Source of the DNA: Lantana camara
Lineage: Eukaryota > Streptophyta > Magnoliopsida > Lamiales > Verbenaceae
Length of the DNA: 64,000 nucleotides
NCBI GenBank assembly: GCA_037501455.1
Contig: CM074858.1
Span: 92,974,501-93,038,500 of the forward strand
Direction of reading: 5' to 3'
Under the pieces are notes generated by a model. It saw only the letters and a list, made by a program, of their open reading frames with translations. It was not told where the DNA came from and did no database searches. Of this stretch, positions 23,960 to 50,705 are shown one piece after another; positions within the stretch are counted from its first letter, which is position 1; the number at the start of each line of letters is the position of its first letter. The translations under genes and the position numbers were made by a program.

Positions 23960-24649
23960 TTAAATTTCATGATATCTAACCATACACTCTGGTTGCAGGG
24001 GCTCAATACTTATGGCCACCACTTCTTGAGGTTGAGGCAATGGATCCGCCGGAGCGGGCCGGATTGACGTGCTACCGACAATTTTGTTGCACGTTTCAAT
24101 GAGGCAGTTCCTGCAGGTGGGGCATGATGAGTGTGCACTCAACCACTTATCAATGCACCGGATGTGGAACCCATGTTGGCATTTAGGCAAAACCCTAACT
24201 CGTTCCCCGGGGGCAAAATCAGAAAGACAAATTGCGCATTCACTGTCCAATCCCGGCAGTTTAAGATCGGCCGTGTAGCTAATTGTAGGGAACGTCTTAA
24301 GGGCTTTTTTCTTGATCCCTGTGTTGGCTACGTGGGCCGATGTGTCGCTGCCCTGGGAGCCAGTTCCTGCGAAGTATGAGCATCTTAGGGCACATTTTAT
24401 AATGGAGTTTAGACCAAGTGAGCAAATTAGGGCACATAGTAGGACAGATAGCACCATGACAACATTTGCATCAAAGGTGTTGCCATCCCTTGGTTGCAAT
24501 TGCGATGGTGATGAATCACTTGAAGGAGGTGGGGATGATAACAAAGGGTTTTGAAATAACAACTTCCTCGAGTGGATGGCATTCTGTAAGATGAGTTCGT
24601 GAATTGTGGAAGTTGTTGAGAATGAAAAAATAGAATTCGTTTGAGCCAT
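23960..24649 (-). CDS. RING-H2 finger protein of the ATL family (E3 ubiquitin ligase)
   Basis: A 229-residue, intron-less reading frame. A hydrophobic helix at residues 61-85 (MVLSVLLCALICSLG core) is the membrane anchor typical of ATL proteins. The GLD motif follows at 133-135, then a RING-H2 domain with all eight zinc ligands: C138, C141, C157, H159, H162, C165, C176, C179. The ATL-type proline precedes the third ligand (LPKC) and the conserved tryptophan is W169. The family transfers ubiquitin from an E2 to substrates, often in defence or growth signalling. Length and lack of introns fit ATLs; the C-terminus is proline-rich and without a known motif. The start is the only Met upstream of the helix and a TATA box lies about 80 bp upstream. 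The substrate and exact member cannot be told. No close gene neighbours. Confidence 0.93.
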   Translation of the reverse strand: MAQTNSIFSFSTTSTIHELILQNAIHSRKLLFQNPLLSSPPPSSDSSPSQLQPRDGNTFDANVVMVLSVLLCALICSLGLNSIIKCALRCSYFAGTGSQGSDTSAHVANTGIKKKALKTFPTISYTADLKLPGLDSECAICLSDFAPGERVRVLPKCQHGFHIRCIDKWLSAHSSCPTCRNCLIETCNKIVGSTSIRPAPADPLPQPQEVVAISIEPLQPECMVRYHEI

Positions 24650-24725
24650 TTGGTTTTTTGAATAACTTTATGTTTTGGCTGTGTTGAAGATGTTCTCCTT
24701 TTGGAGAGGTGGTTGGAGATGAGGG

Positions 24726-30496: not shown

Positions 30497-32009
30497 ATAT
30501 ATTAATCTAAATAAGAAAGAATGAATAAAATAAAAATCATGGTCAGAAATACAAAAATTAAAACTCAAGATAAATATAGTAAATAGAAAAAAATTTCATT
30601 AACAAAAACAACAATTGAAGTAATCTATAAAACAATGAAAAAATGAAAAATTAAGTTATATATATATATGAATTTAGTCTCATGAAATAAAATAAATAAA
30701 AAGGAAATTGAAAACAATCTCTTGAGTTATACAATTTTAATATAAATATATGCAAATGAACATAAAAAAAAAATGAAAAATATAAAAAAAAAACTAAAAA
30801 TAATATAAATAATTAAGGAAAATATATTAAATATATTAAAGTCCAAATTGAAAAGTTTAAAAAATTAGACAAATTTACAAAATAATAAAAATAAATCAAA
30901 ATTCCTCAAATAAATATAATAAAAAAATAAATTAAGAAGTTTTAAAAATATCAAAATCGACAACAAAATACATATACAAAAAATAATAAACAAAAATAAA
31001 AGTAAAAACTACTAAAACCGTGTGCTAATGCATAAACTTTGCTAATGCATAAAATTTGACTAATGACATTAGATAAAAAGAAAACAAAATTGAATAATAG
31101 AAAATAAAACATAAAAAATGATCAACAAAGTAAAAATTAAAAAAATAGGATAATAGAAACATGAAAAATCATGTCATATTCAAATTTATCAAAATAAAAC
31201 AAACATCACAACAAAAGGTACTATAATTGGAGTCCTAAAAATGTTAAAGATTTTTGTGATTAATAAGTTAATTTGTATGATTTGATAAATAATTGAAGTC
31301 CTAAAAATGTTAAAGATTGTGGATATATAGCTAAATCATCAATGGAATAATTTCTAAAAAATGAAATTTTCAAAGAAAAAAGAGTTAAAAAATATTAAAT
31401 CATAACTGAAATTAATTGGACCAAACACATCCTTAATATACTATATAGTATACATATAGTATACATATTGGTCCGTTGAAAATTTAAGAAAAAATTAGGC
31501 AAACAAATTTTTTCTTAAAAGATGAAAAGAAAAACTATCATATCACGAATATGTACACATTTAAAAATTATTTTAAAACACAATGAACATAAAACAAAAT
31601 CTTGTATGAATCCCGAAGAAACACTTAAAAATTATGATTTCCACCTACAATTATATTGATGAATAAGTAATTATATTAACTATACAATAGAGAAATAATA
31701 AAATAAGCCTAATTTATTAATTCTTATACAAAACGATATTTTAAATATATTTATTTCTTTTAGTGTTAAATATTAAAATTTTCTTGAATAAATATTCCTT
31801 GAGGAGGCTAATTAATTTTGAATAATGGGGTTAATACAAAATTTTCTCAAACAATTAAAATAGATAATTGTTTTGAGAAAAATGTCAAATTGAGTATTAA
31901 AAAAGATGAACAAATAATCAGATTCAAACAAAATAAAATATCATAATATTATGGAGAAGAAGAAGAAAAAGAAGGGATAAAATAATAAAAATTAATATTG
32001 AATTATATC

Positions 32010-32831
32010 TGATGGGTCCGGAAATGGGTGAATCCGAATCCGATCACTTTACAATTTATATTTGTGGAGGAAACCACCGGAGCTTCGCCGGAAAAGAGGA
32101 AGTGAGTTCAACCTGTTGGGACAAGCACAAGAAAGTCAGAAGGCCAAGCTGGGGGGAACTGGGGGTGATACCCAGTTTGGCTCTCCGACGCTCAAGTCAG
32201 TTCAGTGTATGAAGAAAATGTAAGTTCAGTCACAGTTGCAGTGATGAAGAAAGCTTAAAGAATGCTTACAGTGTAGAAGATGACTTGGGTTATTTATAGT
32301 TGAGGGTCAAGGGCCCTTTGGTCATTTGCCTCAAGTGGTCCTGGCCGAATGTTGCCCTAACACGTGGCGCTGTGAGAGAGAAACCTAGGAGGAATCTTCT
32401 GCAAAAGCGGCCCAAAAGTTAGTGCTAGCAACAGTGGCAGGTGCGCGGGCATGTACGTTGTGTCAGAGAGCCATGTGGGAGGTTGGTAACGAGGGCTTGA
32501 GAGCGCGCTCGTGACAACCTTGAGTCTTGGAGGCCAAGATATCCGCTGAGGGGAATGTTGGCTCCAATTCAAGTGACGAGCCAAAGGAGAGGCCACTCTG
32601 AGGGAGTGTGACGCTCGAAGAGGGCTCCCTTGGCACGTAGGCGTACCCATCGTTTGGTGTGTAGGACGCTCGTTGGAGTGATAGCGCTCGTTGGGCTTAA
32701 CTCCTGAAGAAGATCTGCGCTCGTTGAGTTCAGCGCTCGTGAACAGATGGCGCAGCCTTGGGGAGACAGATGTCATCATCTCGGTGATGCCACGTGTCTT
32801 AATGTGGGACGATCGTATTTTGGCCCCATCA
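32010..32831 (-). repeat. Left LTR of element B (822 bp), reading outward on minus
   Basis: On the minus strand it starts TGATGGGGCCAAAATACG at 32831, directly after a polypurine tract, and ends GGACCCATCA at 32010, so the outer tip is the U5 end. Its TATA box (TATAAATA) is at 32291-32298 on minus. The tip shares a 7-bp inverted repeat with the start (TGATGGG/CCCATCA). Open frames of 199 codons cross it but lie in non-coding U3 and are not conserved in element A. Confidence 0.85.
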
Positions 32832-32846
32832 TTTTGCCCCCCAATT
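32832..32846 (-). promoter_or_regulatory. Polypurine tract of the left LTR, element B
   Basis: Minus-strand AATTGGGGGGCAAAA abuts the LTR start; this is the plus-strand DNA primer site of Ty3/gypsy elements. It is duplicated at the other end (39806-39820) and in element A. Confidence 0.85.
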
Positions 32847-32850
32847 CTGT

Positions 32851-32870
32851 AGTCCTTAATGATAAGGACT
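32851..32870. repeat. Hairpin AGTCCTTA-ATGA-TAAGGACT beside the polypurine tract
   Basis: A perfect 8-bp stem with a 4-base loop lies 4 bases from the polypurine tract. It is mirrored at 39782-39801, and present in diverged form in element A (43024-43043 and 62134-62153), so it predates the split of the two elements. Confidence 0.7.
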
Positions 32871-33172
32871 GTAGAATTTTGACACGCTGAATCTCTTGCA
32901 CGCAACGCTCGTATAGAACTTGGCGTGTTGAGCAATTTTTCCTCTGAATGCGCCATTAATGCGGTCTTTTCAATTGACCGTTCGTATCACTTCCGCATTA
33001 AATGCTGGTACTATTCTGCAGCCCTTGAAACGTCAGAGCATTAAATGCGGGTGCGCGTGGGGCGCGTGAGCATTGGGAAGCATGTGCCGGTTCCATAAAG
33101 TGGGCGGTTTCCTAGGCGGGAAATGATTACCATTTTGAATTTATTGCCTAAAACGGCACCAACTTCCATCCC

Positions 33173-33180
33173 TATAAATA
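33173..33180 (+). promoter_or_regulatory. Inward TATA box, promoter of the antisense ORF (element B, left arm)
   Basis: TATAAATA lies 260 bases upstream of the antisense-ORF start codon. A possible leader intron begins at CCAAG|GTAAATC near 33305. The mirror copy on minus (39472-39479) precedes the fusion ORF. Confidence 0.7.
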
Positions 33181-33439
33181 CGGGATTCTGAGATCTTCAC
33201 ATTCTTTACGCATTCAAAACTCTCAAGCATCCTTTGCAAAGAAAAATTCTCTCGCATCTTCAGCATCTTCAACCTCTTCTCCAGTTTTCTCTAAAGCTTT
33301 CCAAGGTAAATCTCCAGTGTGACTTTCTGACTTTACTAACCGTAGATTCGGACCTTAGGATTTTGTAATCCCTCAGATTTTCGCCTTTCTGAACCTGAAA
33401 CTCTCTCCAAGAAAAACCTTCAAAACCTTAGTTTCTGCC

Positions 33440-36316
33440 ATGGCCGACCACCATATTGAAGAATTTGCCCGTGAAATCCAAGAGATGGCCACGGAGAGTT
33501 CTTCTTCCCCGGATTCCCCCAGAGATGAAGAGTTGGGGGCGGCTGTGATGGCCTTGGAGGACAGAAATCCAGGAGGAACGGATCCTCTCTTTGAGGAGAT
33601 GGATCTGGTAATGGAAGCAGAAAGACAAGGAGTCACCCTCCCCATAACTCAAAGTGCCACACATCCCCACCGCCACAGAGTGACCGTGGCCGTGGCAAAT
33701 CCGCTTCCAGTGGCGGAAGCCGTAACCGGGCCTTCAGAAAGGGCCCGTGTTGCAAATCCGCTTCCAGTGGCGGAAGCCGTGACTGGGCCTTCGGAAAGGG
33801 CCCGTGACAAGGGCAAGAGTAAGAAAACCCAGAAATCCAAAGGACCCAACGAGGGGGAGGGCTCAGGTTATCAGGCTACCGAGCGCACGCCAGATGAGAC
33901 TCCCAGCACCGTCACTGTGGGAGATGTAAAGACAATGATGGCCCCCATCCACTGGGACGAGCGGTATACATGGAGAATTCCTCAAAACCACGAGCGTGCA
34001 AATAATCCGCCTCCTGGGGAAATGGCAGTGTACGTGGACACCGTGCGCTCAGGAGGCCTGAGGTTCCCCATTTCAGTCTCAATGGCCCATTTGCTGAATG
34101 ACTTGGGCTTGTGTCCATCCCAAATAGTGCCCAACGGCTTGGCCCTCCTGACCTGTTTCGTAATTCTGATGAGGACCATGGGTTACGAGCCCTATTTGCG
34201 GAACTTCAATGCCCTTTTCCAAGTGGTCAGCTCCTCTCGCTCTTCTCCTGAGGCGGGTTTTTATTACGTCCAAGCGAAGGCCCACATGAAGCTGATCAAC
34301 TCGCCCTCGAGTACTTATGGCATTGATTGGAAAGAAAAATTCATCTTTGTCAAGGCTCCAGCAGGAGAGGGCTTTGGGGTGATCACGGAATGGGGCTCGT
34401 ACTCAAAGAGCCGTTTGCCACCCTCACTCCCCCGAGACTGGGCTAAAAACCTGGCAGCAACCTTAAGGGACGAGGGTCACCTTATACAAGCAAAGGACTG
34501 GATAGACGATGCGGAACTCATGTTCTTGTGTGGTCTTACCAACGACCCTCATTTTCTTGACAACCCTCCGGCTCGTGACATAGAGAGAGACGGTTAGATC
34601 CTTAGGGCACTAACCTTAGATAGGGATGAATACTAACTGCTTCTCTTGTAATTTGCACTTAACAATTCTTGTTCAAGGATTTATAACCCTCGTACTTTCA
34701 TTTTTGCAGGAGCCGCTATCTTAGAAATGGCCGGTGGAATCAGACAAGCGGCTCGTTTCGCCAACGCTCAGAGGAATCAAGCCACCCAGGGGAACCAACA
34801 GCGCGAGCCCCAACGCCCCCGTAACCGTAATGACAGAGGGGACGCTCGTGGGGGTGCCAGTTCAAGCGCCAACCCTGAGGTGCAACCCCCTCGTGGCCGA
34901 GGGGAACGTAGACTGGTCCCCAGGGAGACCAGGCGGTCGGAGAGAGCAGGAGATGTTCAACCTCTCCCTCCTGCAGAACCAACGAGGCCAAACACCACTT
35001 TGGCGATTACTAAGGCTCCTGCGAGCGAGAGCGCAAATAGACCTTCCCGCAAGAGGAAGAGAATGCCTGACTCCGCCGCGATCAAAGGAAAGGGCAAACA
35101 AGTGGTTGAGGGCCCCCGAGGCGAGGGGGACACTTCCTCTTCAGAGGAAGAACACATGTGGGAGTTCCCTCGCCGAGGGGACAGAGACTTTTCTGGCGCC
35201 CCCGACGGCGGGTCGGTTTTGCTGAGGCCGGGCTCGGTCGCCCAGACTATTACTGATGATTTGTTCAGCCGGGCTCAATTCTCGGCAGACCACAGGCATC
35301 TCTACAGTGAGTCTGTAGAGAAGGTGACGTTCGATGCAGCCCACGCCCTAATTTCCGTAAGTCCTCATTCTTTGCATTCTTCTTTTCTGTAATTCACCAT
35401 TCTTTTGCTAACACTTTTCCCCTCGTTTACGCAGCAAGTTCTTCCCCGGCTCCGGAATGTACAAATGCGAGCCTCCATCTATGCCGACCGGAAGGCCAAG
35501 TACAAGAAGATGGCCCGCTCGAATGATCCGGCCCATATCCAATCGGAGCTAAATGCGGAAATCGCCAAGTACGAGACCCTCAAGGGTTTGTTCGAGACAA
35601 CGGAGGAGGAATTGGGGAAGCTTAAGGAGGACTTCTTGGCGGTTGACGGCGCTCGAATTCGTTTGGGCAACGAGCTGGGCCAAGCCAACGAGCGGTGCAA
35701 GAAGGCTGAGGCAGAGAGGGAGAGCTGGAGAACGAGGGCTTTGGAGGCCGAGAGGAAGTTTGCCGATACCATGAATGAATGGCCTCGGAGCATGGAGCGT
35801 GCAAACAAGGAGGCCTTAATCAAATTTTGCCATTCGAAGGCCTTCAACTTCGCGGCCTCGTTACACTGCTTGGACGAGGCTCAAAATGCCTTCAACCTGG
35901 CAGTGGATCAGGGCATCCACAAAGGTCTGACAGATCCGGCGATGAGGGGTGCTGAGGGTACGGGGCTCATGTTCAATGAGCGCTGTGAGGAGGCAGATGA
36001 GGATCCAAACGACCCCGCGGACACCATAGCGGAAATGGAGTATGACTTCCTGGTAAAACTGCTCCAGGATGAGTACACCGATGCCCACAGGGAAAGGGGT
36101 GTGGGTCCATCTGGTGATCCCGAAGACGAGCCTCAAGCGCCCATCATAGAAGAAGCCCCAGTTCAAGCCGCTGAAAATGCCAACGCCCCAGAAGCCGCTG
36201 CAGATGAGCCCAACGATGAGCCCAACGATCCCCACGCTCAACAACAAGAGCCTGAGGGCCCAGTTCAAGGCCCCATTCTGGTGATTGTTGATGAGGACGT
36301 TGCCCCCGCCGCTTGA
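33440..36316 (+). CDS. Antisense additional ORF (aORF), Transposase_28-like protein, three exons
   Basis: Three exons give one open frame of 894 codons including the stop: 33440-34592, 34710-35356 and 35435-36316. The introns are GT-AG (34593-34709, G|GTTAGA to TTTTTGCAG; 35357-35434, GTAAGTCC to TTTACGCAG) and keep frame across both joints. Exon 1 encodes an acidic N-terminus (MADHHIEEFAREIQE), a 19-residue direct duplication, then at residues 195-310 a domain with GGLRFPISVSMAHLLNDLGL and a QIVPNGLALL motif, resembling the putative gypsy-type transposon domain Transposase_28 (PF04195). Exon 2 is basic and serine/proline-rich (RKRKRMPD nuclear-type motif). Exon 3 has a coiled coil (about residues 635-720) and an acidic tail. 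In normal Tat elements such ORFs lie antisense between pol and the 3' LTR; their role is unknown. No internal stop was seen. Confidence 0.75.
33692..33806 (+). repeat. 57-bp tandem duplication in the aORF
   Basis: Two 57-bp units encode VANPLPVAEAVTGPSERAR twice in frame. The element A copy has only one version of this region, so the duplication is specific to B's lineage. Confidence 0.85.
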
Positions 36317-36539
36317 AATCCTTCCTTTATCAACTTTCCTGTATTTCTCAGTTTTTCTGCTATTTCTTTGTATTAGAATTCCATGGGCCTTTGAGCCCCT
36401 TTTGTCTTGTAATACGCTTCCTTTTTAATGGATAAAATGTCTCTTTTTTGATGACTCTGTTGTTTTTCTTGTCCATTTATGAATCATATAATAAGGCTGT
36501 GTAGTATACTCCTGTGAATGCTTTATTCCTTTGATGTAA

Positions 36540-37085
36540 TGAAAATTTGCCTAAGTCTTGAGCGATCGTGTGGGGTCTTATTGTGAGATTGCCCCCCACT
36601 CAAGACTTGCACAAATTTTGTTTTTGCTCTTGAAATTGAAAAGTTGTCTAAGTCTTGAGCGCTCGTGAGGGTCTTATGGTGAGATTGCCCCCCCGCTCAA
36701 GACTTGTATAAATTTTGTCTTTGACACAAACCTTGAAAATTTGTTTAAGTCTTGAGCGATCGTGAGGGTCTTATTGTGAGATTGCCCCTGCGCTCAAGTC
36801 TTGTGTAAATTTTCCCCTTGTAAATTTATCTTAAAAGTTTGTCTAAGTCTTGAGCGGTCGTGAGGGTCTTACTGTGGGATTGCCCCTACGCTCAAGACTT
36901 GCATAAACTTTTCCTTTTGTAAATTTGTCTAAGTCTTGAGCGGTCGTGAGGGTCTTACTGTGGGATTGCCCCTGCGCTCAAGACTTGCATAAACTTTTCC
37001 TTTTGTAAATTTGTCTAAGTCTTGAGCGGTCGTGAGGGTCTTACTGTGGGATTGCCCCTGCGCTCAAGACTTGAGCAATTCCTTT
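36540..37085. repeat. Six-copy 86-98 bp tandem repeat at the convergence point of element B
   Basis: AAGTCTTGAGC recurs near 36553, 36650, 36747, 36845, 36931 and 37017. Each unit also contains the reverse complement GCTCAAGACTT about 55 bases on, so each unit can fold. The block lies between the 3' ends of the aORF (plus) and the pol remnant (minus). Variable tandem repeats in this 3' region are known in Tat/Ogre elements. Confidence 0.85.
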
Positions 37086-37144
37086 TTTGATTCTGAGGCC
37101 ATCATTCGAGCGGTCTGGCTCTGATCATTTCTTGGTTCTGCAGG

Positions 37145-37352
37145 AAATCCCATTTTCGAGCGCAAGGCGTTTTAAGAAACGACCAAGGCATACTAGGACC
37201 CTTTTTTTTTTTTTTTTTTTGGTAGATCCCGTTTTCGAGCGCAGGGCGTTTTAAGAAACAACCAAGGCCTACTAGGATGCGTTCTCGTGGGAGATCCCGT
37301 TTTCGAGCGCAAGGCGTTGTAAGAAACAGCCAAGGCCTACTAGGATTTTCTT
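37145..37352. repeat. Three-copy repeat with a CCCGTTTTCGAGCGC core
   Basis: Copies near 37150, 37227 and 37291 share TTTTCGAGCGCA followed by GGCGTTTTAAGAAAC and CCAAGGC(C/A)TACTAGGA; one spacing contains a run of about 20 T. One inverted copy is in element A near 48776-48835. Confidence 0.8.
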
Positions 37353-37652
37353 CGCGATCCCCTTCCTTCTTGCCTAATTGGTTTTGAGCGTAACCAGTCT
37401 ATCCTTATGAGGGCGTCCCCCCATGCGGAGTAGAGAGCTGGCCAACGTAACCCATAAGAGATAACAACATTCAAATTGGAATGGGTTGCCAACCACGCTC
37501 GCGAAGACGAGGGACGTGGGACTTATCCATTCAAGCAACCAAAGAAACCAGAATATTAAAGAAATTAAAAAGATTATGTTACCTTTCACTTTGATTTGAA
37601 GTACATAGTACCCGTCAGAGAGGGTTGTTACATCAGAGTTCGCAAAGAGCTT

Positions 37653-39212
37653 TTAAACATAAAACCGCCGGAGGTTACATGCGTTCCAAGGGCGAGGCAA
37701 GCGCTCCCCTTGAAGTGTCTCCAGGGTGTAAGTGTTGTTAGCTCTGAGTTGTATGACCTTGAATGGGCCTTCCCAATTGGGGTCCAATTTGCCCACATGT
37801 TTGGATACTTCCACTTTCTTCAAAACCAAGTCTCCCAGCTGGAAAGTTCTTTCCTTCACACGCTTGTTGTACTGTTGGGCTACAGAGGCTTTATAGTGGT
37901 GGATCTTAGCCCACGCTCGTTCTCTTCTTTCATCCAGCAAGTCCAACTCCAAGCTTCTGTTGTCATCGTTGAGCTGCGGCTCGAAATAGCCAACACGAGC
38001 AGATTCATTTACGATCTCTGCTGGTATCATTGCTTCTGATCCATAAACGAGCGCGTAAGGGGTTTCTCCGGTGGCTGCTCGTGGGGTGGTGCGATAAGCC
38101 CAAAGTGCTCCTTGCAGCTCCTCAGCCCATTCACTTTTCTTGCTTTCAAGCATGGTTTTCAGATGTTGCAAAATGATCCTGTTGGTAACTTCTGCTTGTC
38201 CGTTAGATTGTGGATGTCCTACAGAGGTAAATCGCTGTTCTATCCCCAACTCAGAACACCACTCTCGTGTGTCAGCTGCTATGAACTGGGATCCATTGTC
38301 AGATATGAGCACCCTCGGTATTCCGTACCTGCAGATGATGTTCTTCCAAATAAAGTCCCTTACAACCTTGAAAGTGATTTTTGCAACGGCTTCAGCCTCG
38401 GCCCACTTGGTGAAGTGTATGAGCTCGAGCGTTTCCTTCGCTTGGGAGGGCCTTAGGCATCTCATTGGGGATCCTTGAAATGATTTTTTGAACAATCTCC
38501 CCTCGGGATCCAGAGCGAAACGAGGGGCCTTATTCCTGACTTTCCTGGCTTCCACCTTGTCAGTTGGAGTGATTCCATCCCTCAGGAAAATGATGATGTC
38601 GTCAAGCCAACAGGGCTCGTTTGGATCAATCATGGCGACCATCTCGGTGGCGACCCTTTCCTTGATCAAAGGTTTCTCAGTTCTAAGGAACGTAACAGAA
38701 CGCTCGGAAGTGCCTTCTAAAGCTGAAGCGAACTTTGAAAGAGCGTCCGCACGCTCGTTTTCTCCTCGAGGCACTTGAAGTAGATGAAATTCCTTGAACT
38801 TCCCAATGATTTCTTTGGCTTTCTTTAGGTACTGTACCATGGTGGTTTCTCGAGCCTCATATGTTCCTTCAATCTGGCTCGCTATTAACTGTGAATCCAC
38901 GTAAGCAGTGATTCTGGAGGCTCCATTCTGAAAAGCTATGTTCAACCCTTGCACGAGGGCTTCATATTCCGCTTCATTATTAGTGACTTGGAAGTCCAGC
39001 TTGATCGCAAAGTCCAGTTCAATCCCATCGGGGCTTCTGAGGGCCACTCCTATTCCTCCAAAGAGAGGATCCGTTCCTCCTGGATTTCTGTCCTCCAAGG
39101 CCATCACAGCCGCCCCCAACTCTTCATCTCTGGGGGAATCCGGGGAAGAAGAACTCTCCGTGGCCATCTCTTGGATTTCACGGGCAAATTCTTCAATATG
39201 GTGGTCGGCCAT
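37653..39212 (-). CDS. Fusion ORF: aORF N-terminus joined to Tat RNase H (aRNH) and integrase
   Basis: A continuous 519-codon frame on minus. Residues 1-51 are the aORF N-terminus supplied by the right arm; residue 52 onward (GGIGVALRSP) is the second, archaeal-like RNase H of Tat elements, joined in frame. The first RNase H aspartate is lost; E82 and D106 remain. Integrase begins after about residue 150, but an in-frame deletion at residues 266/267 removes the HHCC zinc finger and the first catalytic Asp; D305 (ISDNGSQF) and E341 (NGQAEVTNR) remain. The C-terminus is complete, ending at RRFYV. It cannot be an active RNase H or integrase. An inward TATA box at 39472-39479 could drive it. The open frame through two deletions is striking, but chance plus youth may explain it. 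Confidence 0.8.
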   Translation of the reverse strand: MADHHIEEFAREIQEMATESSSSPDSPRDEELGAAVMALEDRNPGGTDPLFGGIGVALRSPDGIELDFAIKLDFQVTNNEAEYEALVQGLNIAFQNGASRITAYVDSQLIASQIEGTYEARETTMVQYLKKAKEIIGKFKEFHLLQVPRGENERADALSKFASALEGTSERSVTFLRTEKPLIKERVATEMVAMIDPNEPCWLDDIIIFLRDGITPTDKVEARKVRNKAPRFALDPEGRLFKKSFQGSPMRCLRPSQAKETLELIHFTKWAEAEAVAKITFKVVRDFIWKNIICRYGIPRVLISDNGSQFIAADTREWCSELGIEQRFTSVGHPQSNGQAEVTNRIILQHLKTMLESKKSEWAEELQGALWAYRTTPRAATGETPYALVYGSEAMIPAEIVNESARVGYFEPQLNDDNRSLELDLLDERRERAWAKIHHYKASVAQQYNKRVKERTFQLGDLVLKKVEVSKHVGKLDPNWEGPFKVIQLRANNTYTLETLQGERLPRPWNACNLRRFYV

Positions 39213-39471
39213 GGCAGAAACTAAGGTTTTGAAGGTTTTTCTTGGAGAGAGTTTCAGGTTCAGAAAGGCGAAAATCTGAGGGATTACAAAATCCTAAGGT
39301 CCGAATCTACGGTTAGTAAAGTCAGAAAGTCACACTGGAGATTTACCTTGGAAAGCTTTAGAGAAAACTGGAGAAGAGGTTGAAGATGCTGAAGATGCGA
39401 GAGAATTTTTCTTTGCAAAGGATGCTTGAGAGTTTTGAATGCGTAAAGAATGTGAAGATCTCAGAATCCCG

Positions 39472-39479
39472 TATTTATA
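39472..39479 (-). promoter_or_regulatory. Inward TATA box in the right arm of element B
   Basis: Minus-strand TATAAATA, the mirror image of 33173-33180, 260 bases upstream of the fusion-ORF start codon. Confidence 0.7.
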
Positions 39480-39805
39480 GGGATGGAAGTTGGTGCCGTT
39501 TTAGGCAATAAATTCAAAATGGTAATCATTTCCCGCCTAGGAAACCGCCCACTTTATGGAACCGGCACATGCTTCCCAATGCTCACGCGCCCCACGCGCA
39601 CCCGCATTTAATGCTCTGACGTTTCAAGGGCTGCAGAATAGTACCAGCATTTAATGCGGAAGTGATACGAACGGTCAATTGAAAAGACCGCATTAATGGC
39701 GCATTCAGAGGAAAAATTGCTCAACACGCCAAGTTCTATACGAGCGTTGCGTGCAAGAGATTCAGCGTGTCAAAATTCTACAGTCCTTATCATTAAGGAC
39801 TACAG

Positions 39806-39820
39806 AATTGGGGGGCAAAA
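39806..39820 (+). promoter_or_regulatory. Polypurine tract of the right LTR, element B
   Basis: AATTGGGGGGCAAAA directly before the LTR start TGATGGGGCC, in inverted orientation to the left tract. Confidence 0.85.
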
Positions 39821-40641
39821 TGATGGGGCCAAAATACGATCGTCCCACATTAAGACACGTGGCATCACCGAGATGATGACATCTGTCTCCCCAAGGCTGC
39901 GCCATCTGTTCACGAGCGCTGAACTCAACGAGCGCAGATCTTCTTCAGGAGTTAAGCCCAACGAGCGCTATCACTCCAACGAGCGTCCTACACACCAAAC
40001 GATGGGTACGCCTACGTGCCAAGGGAGCCCTCTTCGAGCGTCACACTCCCTCAGAGTGGCCTCTCCTTTGGCTCGTCACTTGAATTGGAGCCAACATTCC
40101 CCTCAGCGGATATCTTGGCCTCCAAGACTCAAGGTTGTCACGAGCGCGCTCTCAAGCCCTCGTTACCAACCTCCCACATGGCTCTCTGACACAACGTACA
40201 TGCCCGCGCACCTGCCACTGTTGCTAGCACTAACTTTTGGGCCGCTTTTGCAGAAGATTCCTCCTAGGTTTCTCTCTCACAGCGCCATGTGTTAGGGCAA
40301 CATTCGGCCAGGACCACTTGAGGCAAATGACCAAAGGGCCCTTGACCCTCAACTATAAATAACCCAAGTCATCTTCTACACTGTAAGCATTCTTTAAGCT
40401 TTCTTCATCACTGCAACTGTGACTGAACTTACATTTTCTTCATACACTGAACTGACTTGAGCGTCGGAGAGCCAAACTGGGTATCACCCCCAGTTCCCCC
40501 AGCTTGGCCTTCTGACTTTCTTGTGCTTGTCCCAACAGGTTGAACTCACTTCCTCTTTTCCGGCGAAGCTCCGGTGGTTTCCTCCACAAATATAAATCGT
40601 AAAGTGATCGGATTCGGACCCATCTATTTCCGGACCCATCA
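39821..40641 (+). repeat. Right LTR of element B (821 bp), reading outward on plus
   Basis: Starts TGATGGGGCCAAAATACG and ends GGACCCATCA at the target duplication. TATA box TATAAATA at 40354-40361. It is the inverted copy of 32010-32831; the differences noticed are a G-run length, a few substitutions near the outer tip, and a C/T change in ACACGTGGCG. Confidence 0.85.
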
Positions 40642-40646
40642 ATATC

Positions 40647-42177
40647 AATGATGATTAAATTTAAATAAAACAAATAGGCATAATTAGTATTTCGGAAGTA
40701 AAATCAATACAATATAAAAAAATTAAAAAATAAGAGTACAAATAGAAAAAGAATATGATGAAGCATCCTTACTGGGTGATTCTCATACTAATTTTCTTCG
40801 GATCGTCCGTAGAAAGAAGCCGGAGAAAACAAATTCCCCAAGAATATGAATAATAAGAGTGACACTCCATAGAAATGATTATTGAATGTACACTTTGAAA
40901 TGAAAACTTCACCCAATGATCTCGAATTTATAGACTAAATTTTGGTATTCATAATTTAAATTTGGAGAATAACTTATTTTTGAAAAAAATAAATTAGTCC
41001 AGTTTTTAATTCTCATAATATTTGAATTTTCTTTTTCAACCCAACTTATTAGCCCAATCAAATATGCAGTATGTGAAACTTGATATATTTTCCTTAGTTA
41101 AACACTTAATAAACATTAGTCACTAATTATGCAAAAAAGTTTGGAATTGATGTGTTTACCAAAACTAACACTTAACTTAAAATTTTAAAAAATTAGAATT
41201 TGATCAAAATTGAGATAATTAGGATATTTATTGAATTTTTAAACAATATATTTATAAATAATATAAATCAATAAAACTTTTTATTAGAATTGAAATATTT
41301 CAAAAAAGAATAAATAAATATTAAATTCTATAAATTTTATTTGAATTTTAAATGTTGCCATTAATAACATGAGTTGCATTTGAATTTAAATTAAAACAAA
41401 ATTTACCATAAATTGATACTTTAATTGATAACAACTCCCAAAAATCAAGGGATATATAAAATTACAAAATAAATAAATTAATTTAATAATCATCAACCAA
41501 TCACAAATTTTAATTCGAATTAAAAATTTCAAAAAAACCACAAAATTCCATTCAGTCAAAATCAATTTAATTAGGGTCAAACACACCCTTCCTATATATT
41601 ATAGTATAGATATAAAACAAAAGATAACTGTTACGCATTATTTATTAAAAATAAAAAAAGATTTGATTTGTAATTAGGCCTGAATTGAAGATAATTAAAC
41701 ATAATTTTTCCTAATTTCTTTTCTTTTTTCTCAGTAGTCTACTAATACACATGGATATATCCTTTTAAGTGAAACATAAAATTAAAGTAGGAAATTCAAG
41801 CCTAATTTATACCTTAATGGACATTTGAGCTGACTCAAAACATACAATAAAAAATAAAGATCATCAGTTCTGATATATGCTACAATTCAGCATTGTCCAT
41901 AATCATCGCTAACACATGTGACGTGTGTGCTTAAATGCATATATGGAGAAAATTGGGGCAGAAAACGAATATAAGAATTGCATTTCTTAGGGTTTTTCTA
42001 TATTAGATTTAGGATGATTTACATATGACTACCCTGTATTTAGCCTTAATTACAACGCAGTCTATCATTATCGAAAAATTATATTTTAGTCCCTATAAAT
42101 CTTATTTGGTCTGAGGTCCCTTAACAAAATTTGTAAAAATACACTTATGCCCCGACGGTTTTATGAGTGTTACATTG
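40647..42177. other. AT-rich DNA between elements B and A
   Basis: No gene. About 41990-42110 has an inverted counterpart at about 63130-63240 beyond the other end of element A (shared core TAATTACAACGCA, then ATTATATTTTAGTCCCTA), suggesting the two ends of an older repeat into which A inserted. Confidence 0.5.
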
Positions 42178-43003
42178 TGATGGGTCTGAATATAGGGTAC
42201 ATAGTCCAATCACTTTAGAATTTGTTTAGGTGAGGAAAACTAGTTGATGTTCACGGGAAAAGATGGGGGTTCTACCTGCTAGGACAAACACAAAGACAAA
42301 GTCAGAAGGCCAAGCTGGGGGAACTGGGGGTGATTCCCAGTTTGGCTCTCCGACGCTCAAGTCAGATGGAGATCTGAAAGAGAGAATATGCTAAGTATGG
42401 AGTTGCAGTAATGGAGATTGCTTACAGTGGAGAAGATGAACTCGCGTATTTATAGTTGGGGGTCAGGGACCTTTGGTCATTTGCACCGTGTTGTCCTGGC
42501 CGAATGTTGCCCTAACACGTGGCGTTGCGAGAGAGAAACCTAGGAGGAATCTTCTGCAAAAGCTGGTGGATGTTAGTGTTAGCTACAGTGGCAGGTGCGC
42601 GGGCATGTACGGGGTGTCAGAGAGCCGTTTAGGGGGGTTGGTAACGAGGGCTAAGAGCACGCTCGTGTCAACCAAGAGCCTTGGAGACCAAGGAACCCAC
42701 TAGGGGATGAAGGCCAAGGCTCATATGAAGAGGATTGGAAGCTTCCCTGAGGGAGAGTGGCACTCGAAGAGAGCTTCCTTTACTGATCGGAGCTTTAGCC
42801 ATGTAGTATGAATCGCACTCGTTGGAGAGCGGCAATGTTAATTACGTGTACACATAGCAGAGATGCCACGTGTCCTTGAGGAAGGCTGACGCTTGAGAGG
42901 TTTGAAAGCTCATGTATAATTACCTTAATCACAAGAGGACAGGTGTTGTTATCTTGAGCCGCCACGTGTCCAAACGCGGGACGAGTGTATTTTGGCCCCA
43001 TCA
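42178..43003 (-). repeat. Left LTR of element A (826 bp), reading outward on minus
   Basis: On minus it starts TGATGGGGCCAAAATACA at 43003 after a polypurine tract (43004-43019) and ends AGACCCATCA at 42178. Minus TATA box at 42447-42454. Inverted counterpart of 62173-63000. Confidence 0.82.
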
Positions 43004-43343
43004 TTTTGCCCCCCCAATTCTGTAGTCCTTAGTGATAAGGGCTGTAGAATTCTACTAATGTAAGTCATCGAGCGTTGCGCTCGTATGAGGCATGGCGTGT
43101 TGGGCAATCACCCTTCTGATTGCGCCATAAATGCGGTCTCTTCATCTGACTGCTTGTAACGTCCATGCATTAAATGCAATCCTTTCTTCTGACCGCTTGG
43201 AGCGTATAAGCATTAAATGCTGATGCGCGTGGGGTGCGTGAGACTTGGGAATTACGTGACGGTTCAATAAAGGGGCCAGTTTCCTAGGCGGGAAATGATT
43301 GTAATTTTGAATTTTTTGCCAGAAACGTACCAACTTCCATCCC

Positions 43344-43632: not shown

Positions 43633-43970
43633 ATGGCCAAAGATCATGTAGAAGAATTTGCCCGTGAAGTTGAAGACATGGCTTCCCAGAGTTCATCTCC
43701 TCCGGGTTCCCCTAGGGACGAGGAGCTGGACGCGGCCGTTATGGCCATAGATGAAAGGAACCCAGATGGGGCTGAGCATCTCTTTGAAGAAATGCATCTG
43801 GTGATGGAAGCGGAGAGGCAGGGGGTGACTCTCCCGCTAACAGAGAGCGCAACTCACCCTCATCGCCACACCGTGACCGTGGCCGTCGCAGCCCCGGCTT
43901 CGGAATCCGAGGGAGGAGCGGGGCCCTCAGAAAGATCCCCCCTCGTCGTTTCGAGCGCATCCCCCTTACA
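43633..43970 (+). pseudogene. aORF N-terminal fragment at the left end of element A
   Basis: About 112 codons homologous to the element B aORF start (MAKDHVEEFAREVEDMASQ; shared EAERQGVTLP and THPHRH). It stops matching at SASPLQ, where gag sequence begins in another frame. Its own frame runs on to 44034 through the gag part out of frame. This N-terminus could be mistaken for gag, but its true continuation is the Transposase_28-like ORF seen in B. Confidence 0.75.
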
Positions 43971-44286
43971 AGGCCAAATTCAGAAGTTTATAACCTTTCA
44001 GACAAGAAGCTCTTCAAAAGGCCCACGAAGATAAGGGAAACTGAGGCTTTGAGACACTCAAATAAGTACTGTGCTTTCCACAAGCAAAGGGGGACATGAT
44101 ACGGATGAATGCCGCCAACTGGAGGTGGAAATTCAAAGGCTTGTCGCTGGGGGCCACCTGAAGGAATTTGTCAGGATGTTGGAGCGTTATGATGAACGTT
44201 GCAACGAGCGCTCCGGAGAGAGAAGGAGGAGCCCGTCGCGTTCTAGAAGCCCGCGGAGGCGAGGGCCCACTGAGAGTAGCCATTGA
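43971..44286 (+). pseudogene. Tat gag C-terminal fragment
   Basis: Encodes ALRHSNKYCAFHKQRG, then after one extra G near 44090 HDTDECRQLEVEIQRLV and GGHLKEFVR, the conserved zinc-finger-like end of gag in Tat elements, followed by an Arg/Ser-rich tail. The N-terminal and capsid parts of gag are absent. A stop at 44284-44286 separates it from protease. Confidence 0.8.
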
Positions 44287-45543
44287 GGCAAAGGAAAGGC
44301 CCCAGAGCAAGAGAATGCTCCTTTTGCGGTCATCAACATGATAGCGGGAGGTTCCTCAGGAGGGGATTCCAATGCTTCCCGACGCCGATATATCCGGAGC
44401 TACGATCAGCGCCCCTCGGTGCCCAAATCAGTTTATGCCATCCAAGAGGCGAAAGATCAGCGCTCGAAAGAGAATGATGTAATAGGATTTGCTGACAGTG
44501 ATTTGGAACATATTGTAACTCCCCATGGGGTCAGTGAAACCTCTGACTGCCCCATGGTGGTTAGCTTGGATGTTCACAATCATATTGTGAAGAGGGTGTT
44601 AGTGGACAGTGGAAGCTCTGTTAACGTTTTTCCCTACACCACGTTCCGAAAGATGAATGTTACCAACATCCCGCTCGAATCCCTCAAAATAACCCTCATT
44701 GGCTTTGGAGGTTCTGAGGTCATCCCACGAGGGCAAATTCGCTTGGCCACTTCATTTGGCCGAGCCCCGCAGCGCAAAACGCTCATGGTCACATACGCAG
44801 TGGTGGAGATTGATATTCCCTATAACATCATAATCGGGAGACCGGCTCTCGTGGATTTCAAAGCTATTATTTCCACTTACCACCAGAAAATCAAATTCCC
44901 CACCCCCGAGGGCGTTGGAGAAGTTTTGTGCAACGTGCGGGAAGCCTGGGAATGCTACATGCTATCCCTCAGGAAGCCTAAAACAGAAAAAGCATTCCAA
45001 ATCGGGTCCACCAAGAAATCCGTTGATTTTCCCAATTTGGACGAGGATGGTCCCGTGCGCAAGAGGGCCAAGTTGAATAAGAAAAAGAACAAGAAGAAAG
45101 ATCCCAGCACCAAGGACTCCCTCGAAAATGCTCCGCCAGGGACAGTAGGAGAATCCTCCTCTGAGGGGGATGAGCCCCTTAATGATGGATGTTTGACAGG
45201 AAAGAAAAGAACGCTTGAGCTCCCCCATCCAGAAATGAGGATTGAGCCCTCAGAAAAATTCCGTACTATTGAGCTAGAACCAGGGAACAAGGACAAAACT
45301 ACTCAGATTGGGTCCAACCTCTCTGGGCCCTCGCAGATCATGATGATAGACTTCCTCAGAGAAAACATTGATGTCTTTGCATGGAAAGCCTCGGATCTTA
45401 CCGGGATTGACCCGAGCGTCATAGTCCACAAGCTCAATGTGGACCCATCCTTCAAGCCGATCAAACAGAAAAAGAGAGATGTGCACGGATTTCGGAAGAA
45501 AGTTATTGAGGAAGAAGTTAACAAGCTTCTAGAGGCCCAGTAA
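44287..45543 (+). pseudogene. Tat protease and pol N-terminus
   Basis: An open frame from 44338 (401 codons) covers the gag-protease linker, then protease with the VLVDSGSSVNVF active site (D90-S-G) and a GRPALVDFKA flap region at about 178-187. A lysine-rich linker follows, then the start of RT (DPSFKPIKQKKR). The frame ends at a TAA (45541-45543) where related elements read on into RT, so an in-frame nonsense mutation has split pol. Confidence 0.85.
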
Positions 45544-46286
45544 ATTGAGCCTATCTTGTACCCAGAGTGGCTGTGTAACGTGGTATTGGTGCCCAAGAGC
45601 GCAAATAAATGGCGCATGTGCAACGACTTTATGGATCTTAACAAGGCTTGTCCTAAAGATCCTTACCCATTGCCCCGCATAGACCAACTGGTGGACTCAA
45701 CTGTAGGATGCGAACTCATGAGTATGATGGATGCCTTCCAAGGGTATTATCAAATCTTTATGGCCCCAGAGGACCGCCCCAAAACTTCATTTGTTGTTCA
45801 CTTGGGGGTATATTGCTTCTTAGTCATGCCTTTTGGACTCAAGAACGCTGGAGCCACTTATCAATGCCTCGTCAACAGGATGTTTGAGAGAGAAATTGGA
45901 AGATCCATGGAAGTGTATGTTGATGATATGATTGTTAAGAGCAAGCGTCAGGGCTCGCACTTGGAGGATCTCAAACGCACTTTCGCCATTTTACGCCAGT
46001 ATGGGATGAAATTGAATCCTTCAAAATGTACTTTTGGAGTGCGAGGAGGAAAATTCTTGGGCTACATGGTCAGCCAGAGGGGAATTGAGGCCAATCCGGA
46101 AAAAAATCAAGGCTATTTTGGACATTCCATCCCCTCGTAATCTCCGACAAGTGCAGGTGCTGGTAGGAAAAATCATTTCCTTCAACAGATTTATCTCGCG
46201 CTCGGCGGACAGACAGAAACCTTCCTTTCTTCAAAATTCTACGTAACGCTCGGAATTTCGCTTGGACTGAGGAGTGTGAGAAGGCA
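45544..46286 (+). pseudogene. Tat reverse transcriptase
   Basis: RT proper with KWRMCNDFMDLNKACPKD, the first catalytic Asp in MMDAFQGYYQ (45730s), MPFGLKNAGATYQ and the YVDD box (about 45916-45927), plus thumb sequence. The frame shifts near 46105 into 46034-46246 (IKAILDIPSPRNLRQVQ) and is lost again near 46225-46260 before RNase H. The domain order matches Ty3/gypsy. Inactive because of the frameshifts. Confidence 0.88.
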
Positions 46287-47090
46287 TTGCAGGCCAAGAA
46301 GGCTTACCTTTCGAGCGCTCCGCTCCTGACCAAACCTGTTGAGGGTGAGAAGCTATTCATGTACCTCTCCGTTTCAACCGAGGCGACGAGCGCAGTTCTA
46401 ATAGCTGTACGGGAACGTAAGCACTTGCCTGTTTATTATTTGAGCAAAACATTACAAGGGACCGAGAAGAAATACTTGGAAATCGAGAAATTTGAGTTTG
46501 CCCTCATCAACGCATCAAGACGATTGAGGTCTTACTTTCAAGCGCACTCAATAACAGTCCTCACTGGTCAGCCTTTGAAACAAGTGTTATCCAAACCAGA
46601 CGTATCTGGAAGATTGATAAAATGGGCCATTGAGTTGAGTCAGTTTGACTTAAGTTTCGAGCCCAGAACCGCTATACAATCGCAGGTTGTAGCGGACTTG
46701 CTGGTTGAACGCTTCGGTTTAGAACCTGCTGCTCCAAAGAACGAGGGGCTGTGGGTCCTGCATACAGATGGTTCCTCAACCTCTCAAGGGGGAGGAGCAG
46801 GGGTAACCCTTAGAGACCCCAATGGGATTGAGTTAGATTTTGCAATAAGGTTAGATTTTCAGGTTACCAATAACAAGGTGGAATATGAAGCTCTTGTCCA
46901 AGGGTTGGGAATTGCTTTTCAGAATGGAGCCTCCAGGATCACCGCTTATGTTGATTCACAGTTAATTGCGAGCCAGATTGAAGGAACTTATGAGGCTCGA
47001 GAAACCACCATGGTGCAATATTTGAGCAAAGCCAGGGAAATTATTGGAAAGTTCAAAGAATTCCATCTACTTCAAGTCCCGAGGGGCAGA
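46287..47090 (+). pseudogene. Tat RNase H and second archaeal-like RNase H (aRNH)
   Basis: The first RNase H (residues about 5-145) lacks the usual first Asp (YLSVSTEATSAVLI). The second RNase H starts at LHTDGSSTSQGGGAGV (D161), with E199 (NNKVEYEAL) and D223 (YVDSQLI). Two tandem RNase H domains are diagnostic of the Tat lineage. A frameshift near 47085 (PRG then AENEPADALSKF) passes into the integrase frame. The same aRNH, minus its first Asp, is fused in element B. Confidence 0.88.
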
Positions 47091-48471
47091 AAACGAGCCC
47101 GCTGATGCTCTATCAAAGTTCGCCTCAGTGTTGGAAGGTACCTCCGAGCGCTCTGTCACGTTCCTTAGAACAGAAGAGCCTTTGATCAAGGAGAGAATCA
47201 CCAAGCAAATGGTTGCTATGATTGACCCTAGTGAGCCCTGCTGGCTCGACGATATAGTAAGATTTATCAAGGATGGTGTTTTCCCCACCGACAAGGTGGA
47301 AGCACGGAAAATAAGAAACAAGGCCCCTCGATTTTCCTTAGACTCCGAGGGGAGATTATTCAAAAAGTCATTTCAAGGACCCCCGATGAGATGTTTAAGG
47401 TCCTCGCAGGCCAAAGAGACGCTTGAACATATTCACAATGGAAGCTGTGGGAACCATTCAGGAGGGCGTATCCTTGCGAAGAAGGTCCTGAGGAGTGGGT
47501 TTTATTGGCCCACAGTTCTCCAAGACGCCACTGATTTTTCCAGAAAATGCCCTAAGTGTCAATTCCATTCTAACCTCCCTCAACTGCTAGCCGCTCAAAT
47601 GATCCCTATAGATGTCTCATGGCCCTTTGACCAATGGGGAATCGACATCGTAGGCCCCTTGCCCATCGCGGTTGGACAGAAGAAGTTTGTCATTTTAGCT
47701 GTCGATTATTTTACCAAATGGGCCGAGGTTGAAGCCGTGGCAAAAATTACCTTCAGGGTCGTAAGGGACTTCATTTGGAAAAACATTATCTGCAGGTATG
47801 GTATACCAAGGGTGCTCATTTCAGACAATGGATCCCAATTCATAGCAGCAGACACACGAGAATGGTGTTCAGAGTTAGGGATTGAACAACGCTTTACCTC
47901 CGTGGGCCATCCCCAAGCCAATGGACAGGCGGAAGTCACCAACAGGGTCATTCTGCAGCATCTGAAAACAATGCTAGAGAGCAAAAAGAGTGAATGGGCG
48001 GAAGAATTGCAAGGGGCACTCTGGGCTTATCGCACTACTCCACGAGCGGCCACTGGCGAGACACCTTTCGCGCTCGTATATAGGTCAGAAGCCATGATAC
48101 CTGCGGAAATTGTAAACGAATCCGCTCATGTAGCCTATTTCGAGCGTCGGCTTAACGAAGATAACAGGAGCCTGGAGTTGGACTTACTGGAGGAAAGAAG
48201 AGACAAGGCCTGGGCTAAAATACACAGATATAAGACAGCCTTGGCACAACAATACAATAAGCATGTGAGAGAGAGAAGTTTCCAGCTGGGAGACTTGGTT
48301 TTAAAGAAAGTAGAATTATCTAAGCATGTGGGAAAATTGGACCCCAACTGGGAAGGGCCGTTCAAAGTCATACAAATCAGAGCTAACAACACTTACACCC
48401 TGGAGACACTTCAAGGCGAGCGCTTGCCTCGCCCTTGGAACGCATGTAACCTCGGGCGGTTTTATGTTTAA
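47091..48471 (+). pseudogene. Tat integrase
   Basis: The frame open from 47044 carries a complete integrase: an H2C2 zinc finger (H131, H138, C169, C172), the D,D-35-E core (D201 in WGIDIVGPLP, D261 in ISDNGSQF, E297 in NGQAEVTNR) and the C-terminal GKLDPNWEGPFKV motif; no chromodomain. In the intact polyprotein it would follow aRNH. This domain itself looks undamaged, but the upstream frameshifts prevent its synthesis as part of pol. Confidence 0.9.
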
Positions 48472-48900
48472 AGCTCTCTAGAAATGATGATGTAACAATC
48501 CCACTAATGGGTTATATGTACTACTTCAAATCTCAAGTAAGTTACAATACATTCTCTTGAATATTTCTATACTACTGCTTTTAAATTACGCAAATGGATA
48601 AGACCCACGTCCCTCGTTTCCACGAGCGTGGTTGGCAATCCATTCCAATACGCACGATGTTATTGCACATGGGTTACGCTTGCCAGCGCTCTACTCCACG
48701 TGGGGGGACACCCTCATAAGGATAGTCTGGTAACACTCACAACCAACCTGACGAATCGGAGAAAAATGCAAGGAAAATCCTAGTAGGCCTTGGTCGTTTG
48801 TCACAACACCTTGCGCTCGAAAATGGGATCGCTTGCAAATCCCAAAAATTAACGGGTACCAGCGCGCTCGTTCAACGGTAACGTCATTCGGAAGGAATTT
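48472..48900. other. 3' untranslated part of element A pol
   Basis: Non-coding. Contains one inverted copy of the CGAGCGCA/CCAAGGCCTACTAGGA repeat of element B (about 48776-48835). Confidence 0.6.
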
Positions 48901-49520
48901 TCACAAGTCTTGAACGAGGGCAGTCTCTCAGTAAGACCCTCGTACTTACTCAAGACTTTGTAAAATTTTCCCAAGTTAAGAAGAATTTTCATAAGCCTTG
49001 AATGAGGGCAGTCTCTCAGTAAGACCCTCGTACTTACTCAAGACTTAGTAAAATTTTCCAAGTTAAGAAAAATTTTCACAAGCCTTGAACGAGGGCAGTC
49101 TCTCAGTAAGACCCTCATACTTACTCAAGACTTAGTAAAATTTTCCCAAGTTAAGAAGAATTTTCACAAGTCTTGAACGAGGGAGGTCTCTCAGTAAGAC
49201 CCTCGTACTTCCTCAAGACTTAGTAAAATTTTCCAAGTTAAGAAAAATTTTCACAAGCCTTGAACGAGGGCAGTCTCTCAGTAAGACCCTCGTACTTACT
49301 CAAGACTTAGTAAAATTTTCCCAAGTTAAGAAGAATTTTCACAAGTCTTGAACGAGGGCAGTCTCTCATTAAGACCCTCGTAGTCGCTTAAGATTTAATA
49401 AAATTCTCTAAATTTTAGAAACAAAATTTACACAAGTCTTGAATGAGGGCAGCCTCACAGTAAGACCCCTATGATTACTCAAGACTTAGTAAACTTTTTC
49501 AAGTTTTAAGATTTAGCTAA
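48900..49520. repeat. Seven-copy 87-88 bp tandem repeat at the convergence point of element A
   Basis: AAG(T/C)CTTGAA recurs near 48905, 48993, 49080, 49168, 49256, 49343 and 49434. Each unit contains ACGAGGG...CCCTCGT and AGTCTTGA...TCAAGACT pairs able to fold. It is the counterpart of 36540-37085 in element B. Confidence 0.85.
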
Positions 49521-49853: not shown

Positions 49854-50705
49854 TTAGTTCTGGGCAGCTGGAGGCGCAGACTCGTTGTTTCCTGGCGCTT
49901 GCGGAGCATTGGGCTCATTGGCCTCGACAGTTGGAATGTGGGCATTCTCTGCGACAGGCGCTGGAGGCTCGTTTGACAGAGGGTTTTCGGAAACGGCGCT
50001 AGCATTGTTATTTATCACAGTTTGTTCTGCTTGAGAGGCCTCTTCCGGAGGATGAGCCGCCATATACTCATCTTGGATGAGCGTAACCAGGAAATTGTAT
50101 TCCGGCTCGGAGATGCTGGCCTCAGGATCATCACGGTCGTCGTCATCCTCCACGCAACGCTCATTGAACATGAGCCCCATGCCCTGCGCCGCACGGATGG
50201 ACGGATCTGTTAAGCCCTTATGAATGCCTTGCTCAATCGCCAAATTGAACGTTTTCTGGGCTTCATCGAGGCAATGAAGGGAAGCTGCAAAATTGAACGC
50301 CTTGGAGTGGCAGAATTTGATGAGCGCTTCCTTGTTTGATTGCTCAAAGCGATGAGGGAGTTGGTTTATGGCATCAGCATATTTCTTTTCCGCCTCCATG
50401 GCCCTCGTCTTCCAATCGTTGCGCTTGGCAGTGAGCTTCTTATGATTCTCCTCAAGCTGGTTAAATTGGTTGCGCCAACTCCTTCGAGCATTCTCAGCGT
50501 TCGTGAAGTCATCTTGCAAACTCTTCATCTCGGCCTCCATCTTGTTATACTCTTCCTTAAAAGAAATATACATGGCCTTCTCTGTGTCCAATTCCTCCTG
50601 AAGTTGGGCAGGATCGTTTGAGCGAGCCATCTTCTTGTACTTTGACTTCCGGTCAGCGTAAACCGTGGTGCGCATTTGGATATTTCTCACCCTCGGAAGC
50701 ACTTG
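49854..50705 (-). pseudogene. aORF exon 3 of element A (coiled-coil part)
   Basis: On minus, 284 codons including the stop, homologous to exon 3 of the element B aORF (YADRKSKYKKMARSNDPA; NKEALIKFCHSKAFNFAASL), with a heptad-rich coiled coil and an Ala/Pro/Glu-rich tail. It starts after an intron (50706-50799, GTAAGTCTC to TGCAG) at the same position as in B. This exon is open; the gene is dead because of upstream damage. Confidence 0.8.

Follow-up and report, generated by a model that had tools for sequence, protein, structure and literature searches.

The stretch of DNA analyzed here (the window) comprises 64,000 nucleotides of Lantana camara (contig CM074858.1 of assembly GCA_037501455.1, forward-strand positions 92,974,501 to 93,038,500). 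It contains two neighboring retroelements that share a topology: element B (32010-40641) and element A (42178-63000). In B, two long terminal repeats (LTRs) point outward, both outer tips are U5 ends, and the same five bases stand on each flank. The features of B are as follows.

32005-32009: left target-site duplication ATATC, from flank and empty-site comparison
32010-32831, minus strand: 3' LTR in the sense orientation, with its U5 tip at 32010
32832-32842, minus strand: polypurine tract adjoining U3
33440-36316, plus strand: antisense gene, with PF04195 in its first open frame
34593-34709 and 35357-35434: predicted introns (GT..AG) of the antisense gene, whose removal leaves one open frame
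36540-37346: tandem repeats in the interval between pol and the antisense gene
37656-39058, minus strand: pol remnant with RNase H and integrase, the integrase short of 273 nt relative to a normal copy
39058-39059: head-to-head junction
39059-40641, plus strand: inverted 3' end, with the start of the antisense gene, a polypurine tract (39810-39820), and an LTR (39821-40641) with its U5 tip at 40641
40642-40646: right target-site duplication ATATC

The arms of B (32010-33593 and 39059-40641) are inverted copies of each other that differ in 7 of 1,584 columns, which bears out the initial annotation in its description of outward LTRs with U5 at both tips, set in nearly identical 1.58-kb inverted arms. 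Both tips, read inward from the flank, carry the U5 end TGATGGGTCC. At the inner edge of both LTRs, which are ~0.82 kb long, lies the polypurine tract (PPT) GGGGGGCAAAA and then the U3 start TGATGGGGCC. Of the seven differences, six lie among the outermost 142 columns (Fisher p 3e-6, or 0.003 when the clustered ones are counted as one event). This outer stretch had been taken as evenly diverged at 94%; it has instead four substitutions within 7 bp, one more substitution, and a 1-nt indel.

Read in its sense direction (minus strand), B starts with the inverted 3' end and continues with RNase H and a gapped integrase, the tandem repeats, the antisense gene, the PPT, and the 3' LTR. It has no 5' LTR, primer-binding site (PBS), gag, protease (PR), or reverse transcriptase (RT); in their place stands the 3' end of the family, copied in inverted orientation. 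No PBS-like site was found anywhere in the window, even with up to 3 mismatches allowed. The antisense gene matches PF04195 (Transposase_28/TRP28) above the cut-off (E 1.2e-7). At the junction the two parental sequences overlap by 1 nt, and only one of the best 40 of 2,790 genomic matches contains this junction, namely B itself. Across it, an open frame of 519 codons (37656-39212) places the start of the antisense gene in frame with RNase H and integrase, a fusion that is probably due to chance. Protein searches gave no match at E <= 0.001 for the start of this fused antisense-gene/RNase H protein or for the antisense-gene exon, so that no statement is possible on other species.

Element A has the topology of B in the opposite orientation and with a different junction. 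It runs from an inverted 3' end through the junction to the last part of gag, a broken pol, the tandem repeats, the antisense gene, the PPT, and the 3' LTR. Its features, including the host repeat in which it lies, are as follows.

42019-42095, plus strand: left terminal inverted repeat of the host repeat, which resembles a miniature inverted-repeat transposable element (MITE); its partner is at 63150-63226
42173-42177: left target-site duplication CATTG
42178-43003, minus strand: inverted LTR, with its U5 tip at 42178; its polypurine tract is at 43004-43015
43633-43890, plus strand: start of the antisense gene inside the inverted 3' end
Between 43891 and 43938: junction with gag
43938-48471, plus strand: end of gag and pol (PR, RT, RNase H, integrase) in several broken frames
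48895-49511: tandem repeats
49857-51449, minus strand: rest of the antisense gene
51456-61991: unrelated nested LTR element, with direct LTRs of ~2.8 kb that are 99.1% identical
62162-62172, plus strand: polypurine tract
62173-63000, plus strand: 3' LTR, with its U5 tip at 63000
63001-63005: right target-site duplication AATTG, one base off CATTG

The arms of A are 88.7% identical (~11% differing), and the differences between them are unevenly distributed (chi-square p 0.0007). The domains of A follow in the order of a weak aspartic protease match (E 0.022, below the cut-off), RVT_1, RNase H, and rve, and its antisense open reading frames are homologous to those of B. No matching 5-bp flanks were seen for the nested element at 51456-61991, whose exact ends are uncertain. 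Judged against B, ~1.2 kb of A is absent at the point where this element inserted. Pieces of the nested-LTR family, direct and inverted and ~71-85% identical, also occur in the window at 2685-6512, 19946-21230, 52328-53722, and 60086-61480.

What does an ordinary member of this family look like? We compared the genome (1.27 Gb, 378 contigs) and fetched nine places of the family: seven had both ends resolved, one (C7:11944878) was left out for its nested insert, and the ninth is a composite on C5 that is discussed below. In all seven normal copies the LTRs are direct, one tip is U5 and the other U3, a PBS is present (within 2 mismatches), and the 5-bp target-site duplication (TSD) is exact; none of them contains any inverted LTR piece. 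Their order is LTR-PBS-gag-pol-tandem repeats-antisense gene-PPT-LTR. This is the same organization as that given for the plant Ty3/gypsy lineage Retand in the main text of PMC11963269, with gag-pol, tandem repeats before the 3' LTR, an antisense TRP28 gene, and a 5-bp TSD. Since all seven normal copies have direct LTRs in the Retand order, the inverted layout is derived. Hence, judging from their genes and gene order, A and B would be Retand-type derivatives and not standard members. They have an antisense open reading frame with PF04195/TRP28 between pol and the 3' LTR; the order PR-RT-RNase H-integrase is present in A, while B retains RNase H and integrase only; and neither has the two direct LTRs and the PBS that characterize the seven normal copies. 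Unlike Retand, A and B are without a 5' LTR, a PBS, and most or all of gag, and have inverted LTRs and two U5 tips. The word "inverted" is absent from the main text of the Retand paper (PMC11963269).

The presence of ATATC on both sides of B, reported in the initial annotation, is confirmed. With one ATATC between them, the joined flanks correspond to repeats that are uninterrupted elsewhere in the genome. Besides B's own two halves, 30 of 41 genomic match rows cross the joint, the 11 best of them at 95-97% identity, and 9 of the 41 are partial. Four of these empty-site loci were aligned base by base and all were gapless at the joint, two with ATATC and two with GTATC. We rank this comparison as a stronger test than the probability of a 5/5 flank match by chance, which is ~0.004-0.005 from the local composition. 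In A the flanks match at four of five bases (CATTG/AATTG), with a chance of ~0.03 that is weak taken alone. Joined with one 5-mer, they form the MITE-like repeat of ~380 bp (42019-42177 and 63006-63226), which has 77-nt terminal inverted repeats (TIRs) and many genomic copies, and all 12 loci aligned were gapless at the joint. In 11 of these 12 empty copies the 5-mer begins with C and in one with A, so the AATTG on the right of A probably reflects a change after the insertion. B is one insertion with a 5-bp duplication, and the same holds for A.

These results bear on two other ways of producing such a layout. One is that two insertions of opposite orientation were joined by a deletion. Family members do lie head to head elsewhere in the genome, at C3:8423287-8448842 and C6:25193432-25219612, where the 5' ends are ~0.3 and ~0.6 kb apart. 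We used these pairs, which came from a survey of inverted pairs (best 40 of 4,985), as a control for the two-insertion case. A comparison of their ends revealed four different TSDs, one per element, so we rejected them as further two-U5 units. The flanks of A and B, in contrast, close losslessly at a single 5-mer. The gapless empty sites thus exclude, for practical purposes, a deletion between two insertions, and we give this explanation, already contradicted by the alignments, almost no credence. The other is an assembly artefact, a false palindrome or a collapsed repeat. The arms differ (in 7 columns in B and by ~11% in A), the inner sequences that they enclose are unlike, and the empty sites of the two elements are different, which makes an artefact hardly believable.

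The arms of A have different relatives. For each of them there are sequences at 92-94% elsewhere in the genome, and neither arm is among the other's matches (best 40 of 5,134 and best 40 of 4,547). In a tree of 17 rows, ten of them relatives picked among the hits of either arm, a clade with support 96/97 contains the right arm and not the left one; the left arm is placed more weakly (92/83). In B, the left U5 tip is of the commonest type among the tips found, and the haplotype of the right tip occurs with one mismatch at four other places. The inner 762 bp are identical between the arms of B, and the next copy in the genome is at 96%, so a common source is likely for this part. The initial annotation had proposed that the cDNA carried an inverted duplicate of its own 3' end. 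This is at odds with A, where the arms belong to two branches of the family, and doubtful for B, where the U5 tips have two haplotypes. A second cDNA is a better source of the inverted arm. The same data speak to a scenario in which one cDNA alone was the source: it would have folded back to copy its own 5' part, and the hairpin would have been opened before integration. Such a fold-back would account for the identical inner arms of B, for which no other match exceeds 96% (best 40 of 2,526), but it is at odds with the different branches of the arms of A and the different haplotypes of the tips of B. In addition, one can reason that a closed hairpin that is not resolved offers a single duplex end. 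We regard this route as quite improbable.

The initial annotation had also suggested searching this and related genomes for pairs of this LTR in inverted orientation with the same 5 bp on both flanks. A pattern search with <=2 mismatches identified 2,345 PPT-U3 boundaries, and the survey of pairs covers the 65 exact ones. Three outward pairs within 30 kb were found: A, B, and C5:9822240/9829342; a fourth pair is 69 kb apart. Within 20 kb, three pairs were observed, whereas 65 sites placed at random would yield 0.016. A and B were known before the survey, which leaves C5 as the one new find. The C5 unit (C5:9821436-9835757, 14.3 kb) has CTACC at both outer ends and consists of three LTRs in one orientation and one internal inverted 3' end, with one U5 and one U3 as outer tips. 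Its inverted 3' end stops 45 nt short of the tip; next come a 43-nt piece of LTR in flipped orientation and, after it, sequence of the antisense gene. The unit includes a 5-kb deletion form of the structure LTR-PBS-antisense gene-LTR. The inverted 3' end of C5 thus lies within a unit whose own ends are ordinary, and shows that inverted pieces can form even where they do not serve as an end for integration. This internal piece fits template switching during reverse transcription.

The three junctions lie in different places, that of A in gag, that of B in RNase H, and that of C5 in RNase H ~180 nt further in, where the BLAST ends show no overlap. This is relevant to the idea that the inverted-LTR form is a heritable lineage, moved by integrase acting on inverted ends in the manner of a Ginger-type DNA transposon. 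A and B do have the topology and similar arm ends in common, and oppositely oriented LTRs around an integrase have been proposed, in the passages of Bao et al. 2010 (PMC2836005) on this point, as a possible origin of the TIRs of Ginger1. Against such descent, the arms of B are far closer to each other than to those of A, the junctions are in different genes, that of B being unique among the best 40 of 2,790 matches, and only three outward pairs occur among the 65 exact boundaries. A heritable lineage is thus very improbable.

We think it likely that each of A and B goes back to a head-to-head fusion of two incomplete minus-strand cDNAs, whose product was inserted via its two U5 ends as a single insertion duplicating 5 bp. 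Minus-strand synthesis proceeds inward from the LTR. Two RNAs of the family would be copied in one virus-like particle, and one of the minus strands would halt ~0.7-0.9 kb inward of the PPT. The longer minus strand could then jump with its 3' end to the stalled strand, with little or no homology, and the stalled strand would be copied out to its U5 end. Alternatively, the strands could be brought together by end joining. The two variants are not distinguished here, and template jumping is probably the route. The product would lack a PBS and a 5' LTR and would end in U5 on both sides, as is seen in the sequence of both elements. Its insertion with a 5-bp duplication is documented by the duplication itself and the empty site; that integrase was used is suggested by the intact TG..CA tips together with this duplication. 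Neither element is expected to move by itself, since B has only RNase H and a gapped integrase and the pol of A is broken.

The place at which one strand would halt may be similar in the three cases. In coordinates equivalent to those of B, the short arms end at 33531 (C5), 33593 (B), and ~33697-33745 (A), all within ~200 bp. The first strongly structured stretch of the sense RNA of B inward of the PPT (< -45 kcal/mol per 120 nt) starts at ~33592. According to this folding model, the three short arms would end at or just before the first structured stretch, and stalling there could, as a suggestion made after the fact, set their length.

Several observations weigh against a fusion of two cDNAs as we describe it. 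The exact haplotype of the right tip of B occurs in B alone. The identity of the inner 762 bp of its arms, with the next genomic match at 96% (best 40 of 2,526), would also fit the copying of one arm from the other in a single molecule. The right duplication of A is one base off, and the base in question is found in one of the 12 empty copies as well. Two of the three outward pairs are the cases from which the analysis started. Similarly structured RNA stretches occur further inward in B, and both the clustering of the arm ends and its link to RNA structure are post hoc, the folding covering B alone and having no shuffled controls. Finally, the U3 and U5 ends of the LTR share TGATGGG, a 7-bp terminal inverted repeat, which makes a template switch at the tip after insertion possible.

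This last point deserves attention. The initial annotation had argued from the exact duplication that the unit was integrated whole and was not inverted later. The empty sites uphold a single insertion with two U5 ends. The duplication alone is insufficient: with TGATGGG shared by the tips, an exact TSD does not exclude a later rearrangement, and we rejected it as such an exclusion. Ordinary direct-LTR insertions could have been altered afterwards by a microhomology-driven template switch or by ectopic conversion at TGATGGG, placing an inverted 3' end over the 5' part; both U3 and U5 tips begin with this motif, and the TSD and the empty site would survive. Such an event would have had to occur twice independently, once in A and once in B, within the last few bases of the tip, would need in A a donor from another branch of the family, and has left no inverted LTR piece in the seven normal copies. 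A post-insertion switch is less likely because the same spot is needed in both elements, and we consider it unlikely overall. As for autointegration, its products in retroviruses and Ty elements are rearrangements made by integrase that can invert part of a cDNA. Autointegration consumes LTR tips, whereas both tips of A and B are joined to the chromosome, and on this reasoning it was rejected. DIRS and Penelope-like elements use a tyrosine recombinase or a GIY-YIG nuclease instead of a DDE integrase; A and B have an rve integrase core and 5-bp TSDs.

In keeping with the initial annotation, which knew of no named class with this layout, none was found described in the literature on inverted, palindromic, or head-to-head LTRs, a search that most subscription papers fell outside. 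The head-to-head passages of PMC12312487 concern VANDAL DNA transposons. A related discussion is in the passages on Ginger1 of Bao et al. 2010 (PMC2836005), where oppositely oriented LTRs around an integrase, with a second element inserting upstream, are suggested as a possible origin of its TIRs. Like Ginger1 as presented there, A and B have a Gypsy-type integrase between inverted ends starting with TG. Ginger1 has TIRs of ~40-270 bp and 4-bp CCGG/CCGT TSDs in those passages (PMC2836005); A and B, unlike it, have 0.82-kb LTRs in longer arms (1.58 kb in B), 5-bp duplications (ATATC, CATTG), and retrotransposon genes, and thus fall outside Ginger1 in both TSD and TIR length. Moreover, the two-insertion scenario raised there (PMC2836005) differs from the layout described here, which is one integrated unit. 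The mixing of family members in the arms of A and the tips of B resembles that in the recombinant ONSEN copies of Arabidopsis, where, in the main text of PMC5668417, most new copies mix two members and 5 of 32 have a single parent; the word "inverted" does not appear in that text. In HIV-1, too, reverse-transcribed DNA is integrated with inversions and with unequal, asymmetric LTRs in some proviruses (PMC9278108); the passages on these proviruses (PMC9278108) describe no two-U5 unit.

Elsewhere in the window, a 2.75-kb direct repeat, 99% identical, lies at 7857-10603 and 14538-17286, and an open frame on the minus strand (23960-24667) resembles what we take to be an ATL-type RING-H2 ubiquitin ligase.

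If the head-to-head fusion of cDNAs occurred as we propose, a plant nuclear integrase accepts two U5 ends, and inverted dimers made by reverse transcription can enter the chromosome with a proper duplication of the target. Two-U5 units would be overlooked or split by software that demands direct LTRs. Genome scans could check the route by looking for LTRs that form an inverted pair, have matching 5 bp on their flanks, and have a paralog of their empty site. Through the fusion a retrotransposon would acquire inverted ends of the kind that is typical of DNA transposons, and the fusion would thereby provide a natural one-step route to the layout that the passages of Bao et al. 2010 (PMC2836005) raised for the TIRs of Ginger. 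One could go further and imagine, as a conjecture to which we assign a low likelihood, that this fusion is a recurrent one-step route to integrase-carrying elements with inverted ends, that two-U5 units are the missing intermediate between gypsy and Ginger-type elements, and that the integrase of relatives still acts on them.

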